A DNA stretch of 64,000 bases from Actinoplanes cyaneus (GTDB lineage: Bacteria; Actinomycetota; Actinomycetes; Mycobacteriales; Micromonosporaceae): contig NZ_BOMH01000025.1 in assembly GCF_016862095.1 (NCBI RefSeq), positions 62,001 through 126,000 on the forward strand, in the 5' to 3' direction. The translations under genes and the position numbers were made by a program. This document shows, in pieces, positions 41,590 to 48,043 of this stretch. The stretch's first letter is position 1; every line of letters starts with the position of its first letter. Below the pieces are notes generated by a model. That model did no database searches. It was given only the letters and a program-made list of their open reading frames with translations, and was not told where the DNA came from.

Positions 41590-41726
41590 TCCCGGCTGGC
41601 TTCCAGGGGTGTATCCCAGCTCCAACACACCCCTCAGCGCCAGCCGCGACCAACCGGCTGGCCGCCAAGGGCGCATCCCCGCCTCGACACACCCCGCAGC
41701 GCCAGCCGCGACCAACCGGCTGGCCG
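41590..41726. repeat. Intergenic direct repeats with internal hairpin (62-bp period)
   Basis: Two 40-bp copies (41625-41664 and 41687-41726) differ at one position and share ACACACCCC..CAGCGCCAGCCG. Each contains GCCAGCCG-CGACCAAC-CGGCTGGC, an 8-bp hairpin. A degraded third copy precedes them (about 41590-41624, CCCGGCTGGC..). The whole 372-bp gap between the pectate lyase and the M50 gene holds no gene I can support. Confidence 0.75.
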
Positions 41727-41854: not shown

Positions 41855-42955
41855 TCAGTTCGTGAAGTGGAGGATCAGGCTGTAGTAGTTCATCGAGATC
41901 ATCGCCAGCAGCATGGCCACGAAGACGGTGCTGATCAGGCCGTAGGCCAGGTACATGCCACGCCGTGCGGTGGAGACCGCCCGGTGGGCCGCGGGCAGCG
42001 GACGGCGGAAGATCACGTGCCCCAGGTAGCGGAAGGCGCGATCCCGCAGGTTGATCTCGCCGAGGCCGGCCTCCATGGCGTGGTGGCCGTCGGTGAACGG
42101 GAGCAGCGGGTTCAGGTTGTTGAAGACGATGAACAGCTGCATGCCGAGCAGCCAGCGCAGGTCCGCGAACCGCACCGGGTCGAGCAGGATCAGCAGCGCG
42201 CAGATGCCGGTCGCGATCAGGTCGACCAGCGGCCCGATCAGGGCGACGGCGCTGCGCCCGAAGCGGGAGCGGACCCGGTAGGCGTCGGTGCGGTCGACGT
42301 ACGTCAGCGGGATCAGCAGGCAGAACATCTTCACGCCGGCCTCGCGGACCGGCACGCCCAGCGCCTGGCAGACCGACGCGTGGCCCATCTCGTGGACTGC
42401 GGCCTGCACCAGCAGCACTCCGACGGTCAGGAGCCACGGCGGGCCGGCGAACGAGAGCGGCGCCGGAAGGGCCGTCGCCAGGACGATGAGGACCGTCGAC
42501 GCGAGTGCGGCCGCCACCGTCAGCGTGGTGAACGTGCGCGGGTAACGGGCCAGCGCCATCGACGGCGGGCGCAGCATGCGGTTCAGGTGCCGGGCCGGGA
42601 TGCGGATCCGGGGCGCGAGGCGCAGGAACCAGAGGAAGGCCCGCTGCCCGCCGCGTGGGGGGTCGGGCGGCACTGACAGGACGCCTGCCGCACGCAGGTC
42701 GGTCAGGAAGGACAGCAGAACAGGGGCACGATCGCGTACGCCGTCAGGTCCGCGCGACCGCCGGGCGGCCTCCAGCAGCGCGGTGCCGGTCCGGGAGCCG
42801 TCCAGCAGGGGGATGAGGCGGGCTCCGGTCCGGCTCAGGCGGACGTATCTGCCGCTCACCGGATCGAAGAGCAGGGAGTGACCGTCGGCGCCGTCGATGA
42901 GAGTGACCTCGGGTGCCAGTGCGACGGGCCTCTCCAGCCAGTCCGTGGTGGTCAT
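41855..42955 (-). CDS. PqqD-like/M50 (site-2-protease-like) membrane protein of the TOMM operon
   Basis: A 366-residue protein. Residues 5-95 resemble a PqqD/RRE-type peptide-binding domain (LAPEVTLIDGADGHSLLFDPVSGRYVRLSRTGARLIPLLDG). After a short linker come about six TM helices with zinc motif HEMGH (188-192) and the distal site NPLLPFTDG (282-290), as in S2P-family proteases. In a peptide operon it may bind the precursor leader and cut or release the peptide at the membrane. It is the last gene, 79 bp after the precursor stop, behind a hairpin. Confidence 0.8.
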   Translation of the reverse strand: MTTTDWLERPVALAPEVTLIDGADGHSLLFDPVSGRYVRLSRTGARLIPLLDGSRTGTALLEAARRSRGPDGVRDRAPVLLSFLTDLRAAGVLSVPPDPPRGGQRAFLWFLRLAPRIRIPARHLNRMLRPPSMALARYPRTFTTLTVAAALASTVLIVLATALPAPLSFAGPPWLLTVGVLLVQAAVHEMGHASVCQALGVPVREAGVKMFCLLIPLTYVDRTDAYRVRSRFGRSAVALIGPLVDLIATGICALLILLDPVRFADLRWLLGMQLFIVFNNLNPLLPFTDGHHAMEAGLGEINLRDRAFRYLGHVIFRRPLPAAHRAVSTARRGMYLAYGLISTVFVAMLLAMISMNYYSLILHFTN

Positions 42956-42983
42956 CGGGGGCCTTCCGTCTACCCGGGCGGGG

Positions 42984-43013
42984 CCGGGGGCACGCCGTGC
43001 GGCGCACCCCCGG
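42984..43013 (-). terminator. Hairpin between precursor and M50 gene (likely attenuator)
   Basis: CCGGGGG..CCCCCGG with an inner CGCCG/CGGCG stem and a 2-nt internal loop forms a 12-bp hairpin, 21 nt after the precursor stop. Such elements after RiPP precursor genes lower downstream expression so that precursor is in excess. Confidence 0.55.
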
Positions 43014-43034
43014 GTCGATCTCAGCTGACGAACG

Positions 43035-43307
43035 TCAGTGCATGCCGCGGGTGCCACCGCACGGGCCGCAGTGATGACAGCCGCGGGTGCCGCCGCACGG
43101 GCCGCAGTGATGGCAGCCGCGGGTGCCCCCGCAAGGGCCGCAAGGGCCGCACGGCCCGCAGGGGCCGCACGGTCCGCAGCCACCGCAGCCACCGGTGCCG
43201 AGCAGCGACGCGCTGACCACGGTCGGCAGCTGCTCGGCGGTCAGATCGTCCTCCAACCAGAGGTCGAGTTCATCGATGACCTCGGGTCCGTTCAGTTCAC
43301 TGTGCAT
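43035..43307 (-). CDS. TOMM (thiazole/oxazole-modified) precursor peptide, Cys-rich repeat core
   Basis: A 90-residue precursor. The acidic leader (1-about 40; [19 protein letters not shown]) ends in SLLGTGG, a plausible cleavage site. The core (41-90) has 13 Cys at 41, 44, 47, 50, 53, 56, 59, 65, 68, 71, 77, 80 and 83. It consists of CGGC, five GPC units, then two [12 protein letters not shown] units and a final CGGTRGMH. The 12-residue units are encoded by near-identical 36-bp DNA repeats. Regular CxxC spacing resembles heterocycloanthracin-type substrates of YcaO cyclodehydratases; His pairs and GGTRG are unusual. AGGAG lies 9 nt upstream. Confidence 0.88.
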
Positions 43308-43418
43308 GCGACTCAGCTCCTTCGATGTGTCGTGTCCATGCAGGTTCCGGTCGGCGTTCGGGCCTTCCGGCCGGGGTCCGTACGCCGGAAACGCGGACCC
43401 CAGACTGTGGACCGGGCG

Positions 43419-44153
43419 CTACGCCGCCGTTGCGGTCGCGGGGTGCGCGACGGCGAAGGCGAGCAGTGGCGCGCGGTGATAGCCGTCGGCGCCCGCACGT
43501 TCCCGCAGCACGTGGGGCAGCAGACCGGCGAAGACGGTGCCGGCCAGGCGCAGGCGCAGGGCGGCCAGCCAGGCGGCGTGCCCGGCCGCGCCGGCCCGCG
43601 ACAGCAGCAGGCGGTGGCCGTGGCTGCCGTGCCGGTCGAGCGAGCCGGCCAGGTTGCCGGTGATCACGAGCAGGGCGGCCGCCTGGGCGAACTCCGTCTG
43701 GATGACCAGGTCGGCGGCTTCCTGGCCGGTCGGCAGGCTCGCGACGCGGCGCAGGGCGTCGCGTCCCGGCAGGTACCGGTAGAGGCCGGTGCCGACGCCG
43801 GTGACCCGCCAGGTGGCGCAGAAGAACTCCAGGCGGACGCCGGCGTCGCGCTCGCCGGGCCAGGACTCGGCGTCCATCGTCTCGGCGGCCGCGAAGATCG
43901 CGGAGAGCTCGGCGGCGGTGATCGGCTCGGGCCCGTAGTCGCGGACCGCGACCCGGCCGGGCAGCACCTCGTCCAGCGTGGCGCGCGGCGGGGCCGGCGA
44001 CGGCAACTCGGTGATCGGTCCCTGATCGGGTGCGGGCATCAGGTGGGTGGGCACCGGTGTGAGCGGGCGGCGGGCCCCGGCCGCGTCCAGCCGGCTGTCG
44101 ATCATCAGCTCGCCGAGGATCCGGTAGCGGTCCTGGTCGGTGGTGACAGTCAT
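43419..44153 (-). CDS. SagB/McbC-type azoline dehydrogenase (nitroreductase fold)
   Basis: A 244-residue protein of the FMN nitroreductase superfamily: VAVRDYGPEPITAAELSAIFAAAETMD (the R-x-Y/F start of the family), CATWRVTGVGTGLYRYLPGRDAL, and the C-terminal RERAGADGYHRAPLLAFAVAHP. In TOMM clusters such proteins oxidise azolines to azoles. This is the second dehydrogenase of the operon; the first is fused to the ThiF domain. It lies 46 bp after the fusion gene and 111 bp before the precursor. Confidence 0.82.
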   Translation of the reverse strand: MTVTTDQDRYRILGELMIDSRLDAAGARRPLTPVPTHLMPAPDQGPITELPSPAPPRATLDEVLPGRVAVRDYGPEPITAAELSAIFAAAETMDAESWPGERDAGVRLEFFCATWRVTGVGTGLYRYLPGRDALRRVASLPTGQEAADLVIQTEFAQAAALLVITGNLAGSLDRHGSHGHRLLLSRAGAAGHAAWLAALRLRLAGTVFAGLLPHVLRERAGADGYHRAPLLAFAVAHPATATAA

Positions 44154-44199
44154 GGCAGGCCTCCACAGGCGGTCGTTCCGGGCTGCTCAGAAACGGTCA

Positions 44200-45831
44200 T
44201 CACAGGCCTCCCGCGATGCCGTCCAGGGCGATCACGGCGGTGACCGGCTCGGTGTCCGGGTCGGTGCGCAGCGCGTCGTGGATCGCCGTGTCGTCCCAGC
44301 GGGTGGCGAACCGGCTGGTGATGCCGTGCGTCGCCGCGACGGCGGAGAGCTGGGCGAGCGCGCACCCGGCGTCGAGGCCGAGGATCCGGTAGGCGAAGTC
44401 GAAGTACTTGGCCCCGACGACGGCGAGGGCCCCGGTGAGCACCAGCAGCGCGGACGGGCCGGTCTCCTCGAGCTCGGGGCAGGCACCGGCCGACGCGGCC
44501 CGGACGCGGCCCAGGCTGTGGTCGGCGCGCTGGTAGAAGTACCAGCCCGGGTCCAGCCCCTCGACGCCGGACGCGAGCAGGTACGCCTGCACCGACCCCA
44601 GGTTCCCACCGGTCGGCGCCCACCGGCTGATCTGACCCGGCAGGCCGTTGTCACCGAGGTCGCGCAGACCCGCCGTACGGCGAAGAAGATCTGACAGTGA
44701 CCCGTCGCCCAGCGCGAGACGCGGGGCGGCCTTGAACTCCTTGTTGTAGCGCTGCAGCGCGTGGTTCGCGGGCCGGTAGTGCGCCTGGTGCTCCTTGGGG
44801 TTGAGCCATTCCCGGGCGGGGAAGGCGACCGCCTGCTCGTAGCGGTGGGCCACCGGCGGCGTCTGCGTCGCGGCGTTCGGGTCGGCGGGCAGGCAGACCG
44901 GGCAGCCGGGCCGGCGGAAGGCGCCGACGGCGAGTTGCGACCACTCGTTCAGGTCGTAGACCGTGCAGACCTGCATCGACGGTGTCTGGCCGACCCGGGA
45001 GAGCAGGTGAACGGTTTCGGTCACGGCCAGCGCCACCCAGGCCGCGGCGCGGGCCGGGGACGGCACTCCCGCCGGGCCGGACCGGTTCCGCGCGAAGCAG
45101 TCGTGGCAGCAGGTGTATCGGGCGTCGAACAGGGGCCCGACCTCGGCGGTGTTCGCGCCGGCCGCGGTCCGAAGCCAGCTGACCCCGGCTTCCCGGCAGG
45201 CGGCGTCGACCTTCGCCATCGCGGCGGCGTCCCCGTCGTCGACGGCGACCAGGAAGTCACCGGCGGTCAGCTCCTCACCGGCCCAGGGGTGCGCGTCGGC
45301 GCCCGCGCCGGCCAGTTCGGCGCGCAGCGTCGCGGCGAGCGGCCCGGCCCCGGCGACCAGCACCCGGGTACGGGCCAGGCGCTCGCACGCCTCGTTGCGG
45401 CTGCGGTTGACCCGGGTGGTGTCCAGGTTCCGGCCGAGGTATCCGGCGACCTCGGGCGGGATCACCTCGACGACCTCGCCGACCGGTCCGTCCTGCAGCA
45501 GGCCGCTCACGTAGAGCAGGGACACGCAGCCGTGCAACGACTTCAGCGGTACGCGCGGGAGCGCCTCGGCCAGCTCGGCCACCGTGCGGGTGCCGTCCAG
45601 GTACGGCAGCAGCCGGGGAACGAGCTGCACCGCCGAACGGCCGCGGAGCACGGTCTGCCGGTTGCCGGTGCCCACGAACGCGACGCCGTCGACCAGCGGC
45701 ACCTGGACCAGGCCGGCCGCCAGGCACGGGCGAGCCGGCGGGGCGAACTGGGGGTCGGTGGCCACGGCGTACGCCATGGTCGCCGCGTCCATGCGCCCGT
45801 CGGTGCGGGTGGTCTCCTCGACCTGGATCAT
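44200..45831 (-). CDS. Fusion of ThiF-like cyclodehydratase partner and SagB dehydrogenase
   Basis: A 543-residue protein. The N-terminal part (about 25-290) is an E1/ThiF-like domain of TOMM cyclodehydratases: leader-binding region VQLVPRLLPYLDGTRTVAELAEALP, then VLVAGAGPLAATLRAEL, CCHDC and CPVC (zinc tetracysteine). From about 310 a SagB-type nitroreductase follows: HYRPANHALQRYNKEFK, RWAPTGGNLGSVQAYLLASGVEGLDPGWYFYQ, FDFAYRILGLDAGCALAQLSAVAATHG. It probably presents the precursor to YcaO and oxidises the resulting azolines. Its start overlaps the previous stop by 4 bp. Confidence 0.85.
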   Translation of the reverse strand: MIQVEETTRTDGRMDAATMAYAVATDPQFAPPARPCLAAGLVQVPLVDGVAFVGTGNRQTVLRGRSAVQLVPRLLPYLDGTRTVAELAEALPRVPLKSLHGCVSLLYVSGLLQDGPVGEVVEVIPPEVAGYLGRNLDTTRVNRSRNEACERLARTRVLVAGAGPLAATLRAELAGAGADAHPWAGEELTAGDFLVAVDDGDAAAMAKVDAACREAGVSWLRTAAGANTAEVGPLFDARYTCCHDCFARNRSGPAGVPSPARAAAWVALAVTETVHLLSRVGQTPSMQVCTVYDLNEWSQLAVGAFRRPGCPVCLPADPNAATQTPPVAHRYEQAVAFPAREWLNPKEHQAHYRPANHALQRYNKEFKAAPRLALGDGSLSDLLRRTAGLRDLGDNGLPGQISRWAPTGGNLGSVQAYLLASGVEGLDPGWYFYQRADHSLGRVRAASAGACPELEETGPSALLVLTGALAVVGAKYFDFAYRILGLDAGCALAQLSAVAATHGITSRFATRWDDTAIHDALRTDPDTEPVTAVIALDGIAGGL

Positions 45832-46472
45832 CGCCACACTCCCTGCAGCAGCTCGGGCAGCCGTTCGTACGACCGCGTCGTCTCGTCCCGTCCCAGCCCG
45901 CACCGCGGGCAACCGTGCGCGCCGACCACCCGGCCGGTCCGCACCTGCTGGGCCGGCACCTCGATCTGGCGCACCCGGCCCGCCTCGCTGGCCGCGTCGG
46001 CGCGCAGCCGGTCGACCGCCTCGGCCGCGAGCGCCGCGGCGAGCAGCGCGGTCGACGGGAGGAAGCCGTCCGGGCCGGCCTCGGGGTGGGCGTCGTAGTG
46101 GTCGCCGGTCGCCGCGCGGATGACGCGGGCGTTGTCGTGCTGGGCGATCCGGCGGCGGTAGCAGTCGTGGCAGGCGCCGAGGCCGGGGACGACGGCCGGG
46201 CCGACTTCGAGCTGGGGATGGTCGAGGATCACCGGCAGCCAGGGCCGGCCGGTCCGGAACGACTCCTCGTCGAACTCGCGCTCCAGCCGTGGAGCGCGAC
46301 GCCAGGAGGCGAGAAGATTGATTCCGCTTTGTCGTGATAAAACGTCCAGAACCTCGGCGACCGGCAGCCCGCCGGGCGCGTCCACCACCGACACGTGGGG
46401 AACCAGGTCCCGCAGCCGCTCGGCGACCGCGTACCCGAACGGTCCCACCGCGGTGATGATCAGGTGCGACAT
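45828..46472 (-). CDS. TOMM leader-binding/ThiF-like partner protein
   Basis: A 214-residue protein with a Rossmann-like start (LIITAVGPFGYAVAERLRD) and two CxxC motifs, CHDCYRRR and CPRCGLG, the zinc site of ThiF-like proteins. It resembles the discrete cyclodehydratase partner proteins of heterocycloanthracin-like clusters. Having both a discrete and a fused ThiF-like protein suggests that they work as a pair with YcaO. It follows ycaO by 9 bp and overlaps the next gene by 4 bp. Confidence 0.75.
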   Translation of the reverse strand: MSHLIITAVGPFGYAVAERLRDLVPHVSVVDAPGGLPVAEVLDVLSRQSGINLLASWRRAPRLEREFDEESFRTGRPWLPVILDHPQLEVGPAVVPGLGACHDCYRRRIAQHDNARVIRAATGDHYDAHPEAGPDGFLPSTALLAAALAAEAVDRLRADAASEAGRVRQIEVPAQQVRTGRVVGAHGCPRCGLGRDETTRSYERLPELLQGVWR

Positions 46473-46481
46473 GGTGACTCC

Positions 46482-47810
46482 TCAGGCGAACGGCTGCGGC
46501 CAGGAATTGAGCTCGGACTCGGGCCGGCTGGGATAGCCCATCCGCACCGGCGCCTCGTACAGCCGCGGACTGCCGAGGAAGCGCGAGCGGTACGTGAACG
46601 AGAGCGGCAGCAGCCCGGGAATCACCGCGCGGACCACGGTCATCCCGGCACGGATCGCCTCGTCCGGGCTCAAGTCCACCAGGTACGAGTCGAGCCCGCT
46701 CGCGTCCAGCCGATCCAGCACCACCCGTAGGTCCGCGGCCGCGTCGCCGGTGGCCAGGTTCGGCATCTCGGACAGGCGGCGGCGTGCGCTGCCGCCGAGC
46801 AGGAAGTCGTAGGCCGGCGCGCGGGACGGGTGGCCCATGTAGATCGCGCCGTCCGACACCCCGCTGAAGTCGTGCACGTCGTCCGGCGCCTTGTCGCCCT
46901 GCAGCGCGATCCGCACGGACACCGTCTCGGAGATCGCCTTCGCGGCGGCCACCTGCGGGTCGAGGGCGGCCGCGCAGGCCACGACGGTGTCGCAGTCGGG
47001 ATGGTTCGGGGCGGTCGAGACGGCGTACACGATCGGGATCCCGAGGTCGGTGGTCGCGTCGAACAGCTCGACCGTCACGTCCCGGTCCGCGTACAGGTCG
47101 AGGAACTTGCGCAGCTGCGGCCCGGCCACGTCCAGCTCGATCCGCGGCAGCGCGAGCTCCTGCAGCCAGACCAGGCTGATCGCGTCGCGCTCGATCACCT
47201 CGCAGAGCGCGCCGGTGACCGCGCGGACCGGGTCGCTGTGCGCCGCCGCGCCGGTCGAGATCGGGTTGGTGATCTTCTCCGCCCCGTGCGCGGCGATGTG
47301 CATGTAGACCAGCACCGCCGGGACCCAGGAGAGTTCCCGCGTACGCAGGTTCATCCCCTTGATCCACCGCATCCGCTCGGACTTGGCGGGCGGGACGACC
47401 GGGCAGTGCGGGTCGGCGAGCTCCGTCGCGGAGCAGCGCGGCAGCGCGTCGAGGTCGAGGACGTCCTCACCGAGGGCGGTCAGTTCGTCGGCGGTCGCCC
47501 AGCGCAGCTGCGCGTCGGCGTAGAGGCTGTTCGCGTACCGTTCGAGCGCCTCGGCGCAGGCCACCATCCGCGCGTGCTCCGGGTCCACCCCGGTGCCGGT
47601 GCCGTCCAGACTGCCCAGGCAGTCCGGCCCGCACATCGTGTCGATCACCGTCGACACGTCACCGAGGTTCGCGGAGAAAACCTTCAGCGGCGGGTTCGAC
47701 GGCTCGACCGGCAGCTGCTGCACCCCGGTTATCAGGCCGCCCAGCGGAGAGACCAGGTCCTGCAGCGTGCCCGTCGCCCGCCGCGCCACCTCTGTGGCCA
47801 CCGCACTCAT
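46482..47810 (-). CDS. YcaO cyclodehydratase
   Basis: A 442-residue ATP-dependent enzyme that cyclises Cys, Ser or Thr side chains onto the preceding carbonyl to give thiazolines or oxazolines. The ATP-site helices show ACAEALERYANSL (84-96) and GALCEVIERDAISLVW (about 195-210), with NPISTGAAAH between them. The C-terminus ends in WPQPFA, similar to the proline-rich tail that completes the active site of TOMM YcaO proteins. It is the first gene of the operon; the start MSAVATEV was chosen over a longer MTRGCAE. Confidence 0.93.
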   Translation of the reverse strand: MSAVATEVARRATGTLQDLVSPLGGLITGVQQLPVEPSNPPLKVFSANLGDVSTVIDTMCGPDCLGSLDGTGTGVDPEHARMVACAEALERYANSLYADAQLRWATADELTALGEDVLDLDALPRCSATELADPHCPVVPPAKSERMRWIKGMNLRTRELSWVPAVLVYMHIAAHGAEKITNPISTGAAAHSDPVRAVTGALCEVIERDAISLVWLQELALPRIELDVAGPQLRKFLDLYADRDVTVELFDATTDLGIPIVYAVSTAPNHPDCDTVVACAAALDPQVAAAKAISETVSVRIALQGDKAPDDVHDFSGVSDGAIYMGHPSRAPAYDFLLGGSARRRLSEMPNLATGDAAADLRVVLDRLDASGLDSYLVDLSPDEAIRAGMTVVRAVIPGLLPLSFTYRSRFLGSPRLYEAPVRMGYPSRPESELNSWPQPFA

Positions 47811-48043
47811 CTCCGCGCACCCTCTCGTCAACCGGCTCGCGCCGGCCGGACGGTCCGGCGCGTACTCAAGCCTCGTCCCGAGAAAGCGCGTTTCGCTGGT
47901 GTTTACGGAAATTGCAGCCTGGGTAAATTAATGCGCTTTTGTTAGGAATGTAGGGACAGTAACCTGCCCCTGCCCTCGGTCGTTACAGGTACCGTTTCAC
48001 CGCCCATTTCCCAGTACGCCGATAGGCCTTGTCGCCGCACTGA
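47811..48043. promoter_or_regulatory. Leader region of the TOMM operon
   Basis: This 233-bp gap is AT-rich near 47895-47975 compared with its surroundings and lies just upstream of ycaO, so it probably holds the operon promoter. I cannot fix -35 and -10 boxes with confidence. No gene is seen. The downstream end abuts the stop of the CDF transporter gene. Confidence 0.35.

Follow-up and report, generated by a model that had tools for sequence, protein, structure and literature searches.

A six-gene azole RiPP cassette of Actinoplanes predicted to make linear poly-thiazole peptides

Introduction

What kind of peptide is made by the six genes at 41855-47810, all on the minus strand, of the window (a 64,000-nucleotide stretch of the Actinoplanes cyaneus contig NZ_BOMH01000025.1), and do they form a pathway of a known type? 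A preliminary description of the locus took them for a complete thiazole/oxazole-modified microcin (TOMM) operon, i.e. an operon for an azole-containing ribosomally synthesized and post-translationally modified peptide (RiPP). We characterized the locus as an azole RiPP cassette which, judged from its sequence, combines the azole half of a thiopeptide pathway with a heterocycloanthracin-like core and is a member of neither family by the features tested. Quite probably it is self-contained and makes linear poly-thiazole peptides that would be neither dehydrated nor macrocyclised. The genes are listed in the order of transcription (RRE, RiPP recognition element; KY, Lys-Tyr):

46482..47810, minus strand: YcaO cyclodehydratase (discrete D protein), 442 amino acids, C-terminus ..WPQPFA
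45828..46472, minus strand: ThiF/E1-like partner, 214 amino acids, two invariant CxxC
44200..45831, minus strand: RRE-like and E1-like domain fused to a SagB-type azoline dehydrogenase with the KY motif
43419..44153, minus strand: second SagB-like protein (SagB2), no KY, likely a non-canonical dehydrogenase subunit
43035..43307, minus strand: precursor peptide, 90 amino acids, with a 40-residue conserved leader and a 50-residue core (predicted) containing 13 Cys and 3 in-register Thr
41855..42955, minus strand: PqqD/RRE-like domain with M50 intramembrane metalloprotease, 366 amino acids, HExxH and NPLxP..DG conserved

Enzymes of the cassette

The gene roles given in the preliminary description were borne out by family and structure matches for every enzyme, the structure match of the M50 protein being weak. 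The YcaO protein scored 283 bits (E 2.5e-84) against TIGR03604 (cut-off 219) and gave E 1.5e-69 with Pfam PF02624, its YcaO domain starting at residue 72; the whole YcaO part of LynD (354-775) aligned with it at E 7e-26. It is the single YcaO match in the window genome (10.36 Mb, 183 contigs). The ThiF-like protein scored 53.4 bits against TIGR03882 (cut-off 36.9), its profile matched the E1 region of LynD and TruD (E 0.003-0.006), and its identity across 9 relatives was 64-81%; the stop and start codons of its gene and of the fusion gene overlap.

The fusion protein stayed under the cut-offs of both the SagB model TIGR03605 (68.8 bits, cut-off 78.4) and TIGR03882 (29.5 bits, cut-off 36.9). 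A profile built with 24 relatives resembled MusD, TruD and LynD in its N-terminal part and the dehydrogenases CyaGox and McbC in its C-terminal part; residues 48-112 matched the solved PbtF chain 8t19 (E 0.0097), which we take to be the RRE-bearing protein of GE2270 thiopeptide biosynthesis. SagB2 passed the cut-off of the Pfam nitroreductase family PF00881 (E 6.6e-8), and its profile matched nitroreductases. All these enzymes were intact and conserved in the 10 cassette copies aligned.

For the sixth gene a PqqD-M50 protease-like protein had been proposed, and this largely held: Pfam M50 (PF02163) was found at 29.1 bits, over its cut-off of 27.2, with PqqD slightly under its own. The best named relative was the daptide protease model NF041824 (E 1.9e-30, residues 11-353), whose equivalog cut-off was missed (106 against 300 bits); matches to solved structures were weak (E 0.07-0.7). 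Judged by the alignment of relatives, the most likely start codon lies at 42955 and not further upstream: beginning at the GTG at 43192 would make the gene overlap that of the precursor. Hydropathy indicated about four membrane segments. HExxH and the downstream NPL(L/F)P...DG were retained in 11 of 11 copies, the latter motif being one residue shorter in L036, L037 and L039.

The best reading of this protein is a leader-removing protease, since daptides and epipeptides offer precedents: in daptides the RRE-dependent intramembrane peptidase MpaP takes off the leader (excerpt of PMC10036551), and for EpeP, an M50 protease of epipeptides, a part in cleavage and export has been proposed (excerpt of PMC10885120). 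That the cassette's protease takes part in export is speculation.

Precursor peptides

The precursor was described earlier as a 13-Cys tandem-repeat peptide, and so it proved: its gene contains a 36-bp tandem repeat (2.8 copies, 93% match) and 10 of the 12 successive Cys steps in the core are of three residues, as compared with a mean of 1.7 and a maximum of 7 in 5000 core shuffles. Five GPC units are followed by longer repeat units with GGTRG and His-His. GGTRG had been regarded as a separate kind of unit; we found that its Thr occupies a Cys slot inside the three-residue register.

Altogether 14 precursors were found: 11 in cassettes, two extra ones beside the L034 cassette (Actinoplanes regularis) and one orphan (L033) in genome G022. 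The orphan lies far from the G022 cassette, and the 19 kb fetched around it contain no cassette enzymes. One of the extra L034 precursors (L034:9185-9394, minus strand), situated downstream of the M50 gene, has 11 His in a 29-residue core.

Leader and core behave differently. A nearly invariant leader stretch of 26 codons had a ratio of nonsynonymous to synonymous polymorphism (pN/pS) of 0.086 (12 genes; L034b and L039 left out), by which sequence measure the leader is under purifying selection. The cores are hypervariable, with 29-70 residues (L029, truncated by N, left out of the length range) and 8-24 Cys; 170 of 202 successive Cys steps are exactly three residues (1000 shuffles: mean 30.5, maximum 48). 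Asp and Glu are absent from all 14 cores; each contains Arg, Lys or His. The spacing in the window core and the conservation of the cassette in 10 further genomes show that the pattern is not a product of chance. In 17 six-residue gaps the would-be Cys slot is filled by Thr or Ser (10 cases), His (6, all in L037) or Gly (1). All six Thr of the cores follow Gly and fill the Cys slot of one of these gaps or, in the window core, the corresponding last slot; they are not independent, because all derive from one shared GGTRG unit. As to Ser, 5 of 28 core residues are in register, and in L039 none of 15. The core is best read as a set of C-X-X units, which would be gained, lost and substituted while leader and enzymes stay constant.

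Distribution of the cassette

With the window precursor as query (E ≤ 0.001) we searched 354 genomes of the family. Twenty-two genomes matched; the cassette is carried by 11 of them, all Actinoplanes, including the window genome (11 of 67 genomes of the genus). A comparison of gene order had been suggested earlier; in all 10 relatives the six genes were present and identically ordered, one copy (Actinoplanes liguriensis) being broken by N runs and frame breaks of the draft. The other 11 matching genomes (E 2e-7 to 1e-3), as well as second weak matches in G049 and G068, were not counted: L013 and L016 appear to be low-complexity frames; L018, L026 and L028 contain no repeated-Cys frame by our criterion; the regions fetched from G040 and G147 lack the cassette; the remaining eight uncounted genomes were judged by E-value alone.

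In five copies (window, L029, L030, L034, L038) the surroundings agree: beyond YcaO there is a cation-efflux gene, and beyond M50 a pectate lyase. Counting as shared any flanking gene at least 50% identical within 8.5 kb, we found none that the remaining six copies (L031, L032, L035, L036, L037, L039) have in common with those five or with each other. No seventh gene, transporter included, is common to the neighbourhoods of all 11 cassettes; given these seven neighbourhoods, the unit consists therefore of six genes. The earlier word 'complete' fits the six genes conserved together and fails in that no transporter or other gene joins them in every cassette.

Relatives outside Actinoplanes

We considered 17 neighbourhoods of distant fusion proteins, 9 in genomes of the family, which cover all places found there outside the cassettes, and 8 from the 9 other genomes found in a class sample of 394 (G720 was not fetched). 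Five of them, from other families of the class (L088, L089, L090, L092, L095), contain the azole row, an M50 gene and a split LanB, with one to four called Ser/Thr-rich precursors each; L091 resembles these clusters, its YcaO and ThiF genes not being called. Identity of L088-type to Actinoplanes proteins was 41-46% for YcaO, 34-41% for the fusion and 34-41% for M50. Their precursors are 55-62 amino acids long, and three tested scored 49-72 bits on the thiocillin-family model NF033482. We recognised no description of L088-type LanB-M50 clusters in the literature searched.

L093 has the same YcaO-ThiF-fusion-SagB2 row within a berninamycin-type thiopeptide cluster (precursor 59.6 bits with NF033401); L072 and L094 have L093-like enzymes of thiopeptide type and no called precursor. 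L073, L074 and L075, with two YcaO each, fall with L077, which has one, into a group of clusters with precursors of 45-53 amino acids, and L076 joins this group in the YcaO tree. L070 and L071 are of unclear type. An M50 profile run against 397 genomes of the order found two further genomes (G779, G817) at E ≤ 1e-30.

In the YcaO, fusion and M50 trees the Actinoplanes proteins formed one clade each (100/100). The fusion tree placed this clade with L088, L089, L090 and L095 with weak support (86/79); the M50 tree, midpoint-rooted only and with a long-branch warning, gave the same grouping (100/100). In the YcaO tree the Actinoplanes clade grouped with neither the thiopeptide-type nor the LanB-M50 clusters.

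Two side observations belong here. L069 (7049-12746), from another genus of the family, is a six-gene cassette with an M50 gene and no LanB beside it; its 65-residue precursor is Cys-rich and irregular (non-periodic), and LanB domains occur elsewhere in that genome. The precursors of L073, L074 and L075 (45-47 amino acids) end in CNYPMCA or CSNPMCA; one gene in these clusters presumably encodes a DUF692-type oxidase.

Dehydratase search

The C-terminal thiopeptide dehydratase domain (PF14028) was present at the cluster in four of four control genomes (G503, G442, G608, G567). Genome-wide, it was not found in 7 of the 11 cassette genomes, the window genome among them. The L088 LanB as query matched nothing in any of the 11, and it fails on the thiopeptide genome G567 as well. 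PF14028 was used in place of PF04738, which misses the divergent dehydratase of control G608. From the PF14028 and L088 results, LanB-type dehydration is therefore outside the cassette and unavailable in most of these genomes.

Comparison with known systems

The row YcaO, ThiF, fusion, SagB2 resembles SulD-SulE-SulF-SulG of sulfomycin by domain content, set against descriptions of the Sul proteins only. Thiopeptides of the sulfomycin, berninamycin and TP-1161 type share with the cassette a discrete YcaO, a discrete ThiF-like protein, an RRE-ThiF-SagB fusion and a second dehydrogenase, in the same order as judged from L093. The sulfomycin dehydrogenase is said, by a title of Du from 2020 (cited in PMC8448680), to be heterotrimeric. 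In excerpts of PMC10634744, RREs are assigned to SulB and SulF and dehydrogenase function to SulF and SulG, and activity is reported for the complexes SulBC, SulEFG and SulDEFG. TP-1161 and berninamycin have unfused cyclodehydratases (excerpt of PMC4603692). Unlike the sulfomycin type, the cassette has no LanB, no second YcaO (sulfomycin has SulC and SulD) and no run of Ser/Thr in the core; it has a linked RRE-M50 protease instead. The L088-type clusters share the enzyme row, the M50 gene and a leader of similar design but differ in their split LanB and Ser/Thr-rich precursors. None of six Actinoplanes precursors reached the NF033482 cut-off of 25: L036 was the best (23.4), followed by the window (16.9) and L038 (10.6), with no match for L035 and L039. 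Thus the unfused azole module of one thiopeptide type is present, in a row as in L093, while membership among thiopeptides was ruled out by the missing dehydratase, the precursor model agreeing. For a pyridine-forming [4+2] enzyme there is no candidate in the form of a seventh gene common to all cassettes, the genome-wide search having covered PF14028 only.

The core pattern had been set down as one not known from heterocycloanthracin-, goadsporin- or plantazolicin-type peptides. Cys-X-X periodicity is, however, the hallmark of heterocycloanthracins, and the Bacillus precursor BA_2677 has thirteen Cys with ten spacings of two residues (excerpt of PMC2674419); the novelty is for this reason not in Cys spacing. 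Heterocycloanthracins likewise combine a hypervariable Cys-X-X core with a constant leader and have precursors encoded away from the enzymes (excerpts of PMC2674419 and PMC4603692). They differ in having a fused truncated C-D cyclodehydratase with separate F and B proteins, whereas in the cassette the RRE/E1 part is fused to SagB. The window precursor did not match the heterocycloanthracin leader TIGR03601 at E ≤ 1, and a term search of PMC2674419 gave no mention of an M50 protease. Leader and gene architecture rule out membership, though the core is of Cys-X-X type.

Daptide MpaP is similar in having an N-terminal RRE fused to an intramembrane protease; of the modifying enzymes that PMC10036551 names for daptides, not one is encoded in the cassette. 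Dehydrazoles, raised as a candidate by the Ser/Thr cores of relatives, have a long nitrile-hydratase-like leader with a LanM-type dehydratase and an S8 protease in the cluster (excerpt of PMC10676384); we rejected them in view of the 40-residue leader and six genes without such enzymes (no genome-wide LanM search). What we regard as new, as predicted from these comparisons, is that Cys-X-X spacing comes together with a leader of unrelated sequence, an azole module like that of sulfomycin and berninamycin, and an RRE-M50 protease, while a dehydratase is lacking. No published description of this six-gene cassette was recognised in open-licence literature, mostly titles and openings of abstracts.

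Regulatory elements and adjacent features

Two elements lie outside the coding regions:

43308..43403, minus strand: two-hairpin element and ribosome-binding site ahead of the precursor (model R1)
47892..47911, minus strand: upstream motif TTTCCGNAAACCNCAGCGAA, 20 bases, upstream of YcaO, promoter/operator candidate

The GC-rich two-hairpin element R1 with a conserved ribosome-binding site precedes 13 of the 14 precursors, the orphan included (L033:9560-9646); apart from the window and L033, its sites are upstream of precursors in L029-L032 and L034-L038. In L039 two hairpins can fold, yet model R1 finds none. The R1 search of 67 genomes gave 13 places in 11 genomes, 12 of them before precursors; the thirteenth is a weak match (G067, E 0.003), at which we recognised no precursor. 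Covariation gives modest support: both sides had changed in 4 of 21 pairs, a count reached by 16 of 500 shuffles. A likely chance row, L029:5726 (E 0.093), was dropped from this count; with it, 8 pairs changed and none of 500 shuffles did as well. The window copy folds no better than shuffles (z -0.60).

The TTTCCGNAAACCNCAGCGAA motif, with one mismatch allowed, occurred 8 times in the 67 genomes, 7 times directly ahead of a cassette; in the four remaining cassettes its form is more divergent. Two Rfam matches in 41.7-48.1 kb at E ≤ 1 were far under gathering scores and were taken as chance. Directly downstream of the operon there is a 62-bp tandem repeat (2.2 copies, 41592-41726). A plasmid location was considered and dropped (tblastn of the fusion protein gave two distant records only), as was a defence system (five enzymes had no PADLOC match at E ≤ 0.001).

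Discussion

From gene anatomy and precedent we infer RRE-guided cyclodehydration and oxidation followed by removal of the leader. The RRE at the N-terminus of the fusion would bind the precursor leader; YcaO, held by the E1-like domains, would cyclodehydrate core Cys, and possibly in-register Thr or Ser, to azolines. The fused SagB, the KY-less SagB2 and the ThiF-like protein (compare the SulE-SulF-SulG complex) would oxidise azolines to azoles. The RRE-M50 protease would then bind the same leader and cleave at the membrane. We expect a linear poly-thiazole peptide, cationic and rich in Gly, that in the window has up to 13 thiazoles, or 16 rings should the Thr also react. Counted from its first Cys, the window core has a calculated monoisotopic mass of 4650.67 Da, or of 4390.33 Da with 13 thiazoles. 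As a cationic Gly-thiazole chain the product is reminiscent of microcin B17; a gyrase target is not supported.

Several observations weigh against this interpretation. The product and the modification of its Cys are predicted from genes alone, as is the boundary between the 40-residue leader and the 50-residue core. PqqD (PF05402) reached 21.7 bits (E 2.5e-4), slightly under its cut-off of 23.4; in the profile search of solved structures with the M50 protein no RRE structure matched, and comparing the RRE-like end of the fusion with that of the M50 protein by hhalign gave 46% probability only. SagB2 has Arg-His or Arg-Asn at the KY position in 11 of 11 Actinoplanes copies, so that its likely role as a non-canonical dehydrogenase subunit is an inferred one, and in the L039 fusion Arg-Tyr replaces KY. 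PF14028 occurs in 4 of 11 cassette genomes (G049, G059, G066, G068), on another contig or more than 0.5 Mb off, and PF04738 matches 6 of 11, none at the cassette. The call of absence rests on PF14028 and the L088 LanB, because PF04738 misses the divergent dehydratase; split LanB stands beside none of the 11 cassettes, in a search that did not take in LanM-type dehydratases. Neither a transporter nor an immunity gene was recognised, and an exported antibiotic is therefore not supported.

The dehydratase domains elsewhere in these genomes, together with the kinship of machinery and leader to thiopeptide-like clusters, are in line with the cassette being a thiopeptide cluster in decay, or one borrowing its dehydratase, so that the product would still be a dehydrated thiopeptide-like macrocycle. 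We hold this very unlikely: the larger part of the genomes is without PF14028, the L088-type LanB is unmatched in all, 7 of the 14 cores lack any Ser or Thr that could be dehydrated, and the enzymes show no decay in the 10 aligned copies. A different reading keeps the enzymes and limits their action, so that azolines only are formed, or rings at some Cys, with free Cys giving disulfides or binding metal. SagB2 without KY fits it, rings at very closely spaced Cys may be difficult to install, and in the window core 7 of the 12 Cys after the first are preceded by Pro. On the other hand, KY, a motif that McbC needs to oxidise azolines, is retained by the fused SagB in 9 of 10 Actinoplanes copies. 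Micrococcin has all six Cys converted (excerpt of PMC10634744); we consider partial ring formation rather unlikely.

A metal-binding product was the alternative offered in the preliminary description. The peptide would stay unmodified as a small Cys/His protein, metallothionein- or metallophore-like, the enzymes acting elsewhere or the thiols staying free; CxxC spacing, HH pairs, the His-rich extra L034 precursor and the cation-efflux gene found close to 5 of the 11 cassettes are in line with it. This gene is, however, missing from the fetched stretch in the other 6, and 4 of 14 cores have no His. Thr and Ser can form rings and bind metal poorly. Since they fill the Cys slot in more than half of the six-residue gaps, and the YcaO/E1/SagB genes accompany a clear precursor in all 11 genomes that have one, a metal binder is possible in principle and, to our mind, highly improbable. 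Conversion of Cys to thiazole, also proposed earlier, stays the leading idea, given the linkage of precursor to YcaO, E1 and SagB and the register of Cys.

A wider picture, on which we are nearly evenly divided with a slight lean to doubt, is that of long poly-thiazole chains (up to about 24 rings) made across the genus: a thiopeptide azole module working without dehydratase, RRE-guided protease release without a dedicated transporter, interchangeable C-X-X units in a fixed three-residue register, and precursor genes that move together with a two-hairpin mRNA element of their own, allowing extra and orphan precursors to feed one enzyme set.

If rings do form, the cassette is a compact system (six genes, about 6 kb) for long poly-azole peptides with natural core diversity, present in seven chromosomal settings; the 14 natural cores behind one leader make substrate tolerance directly testable. 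It would also show that a thiopeptide-type azole module can work without a dehydratase, paired with an RRE-M50 protease.

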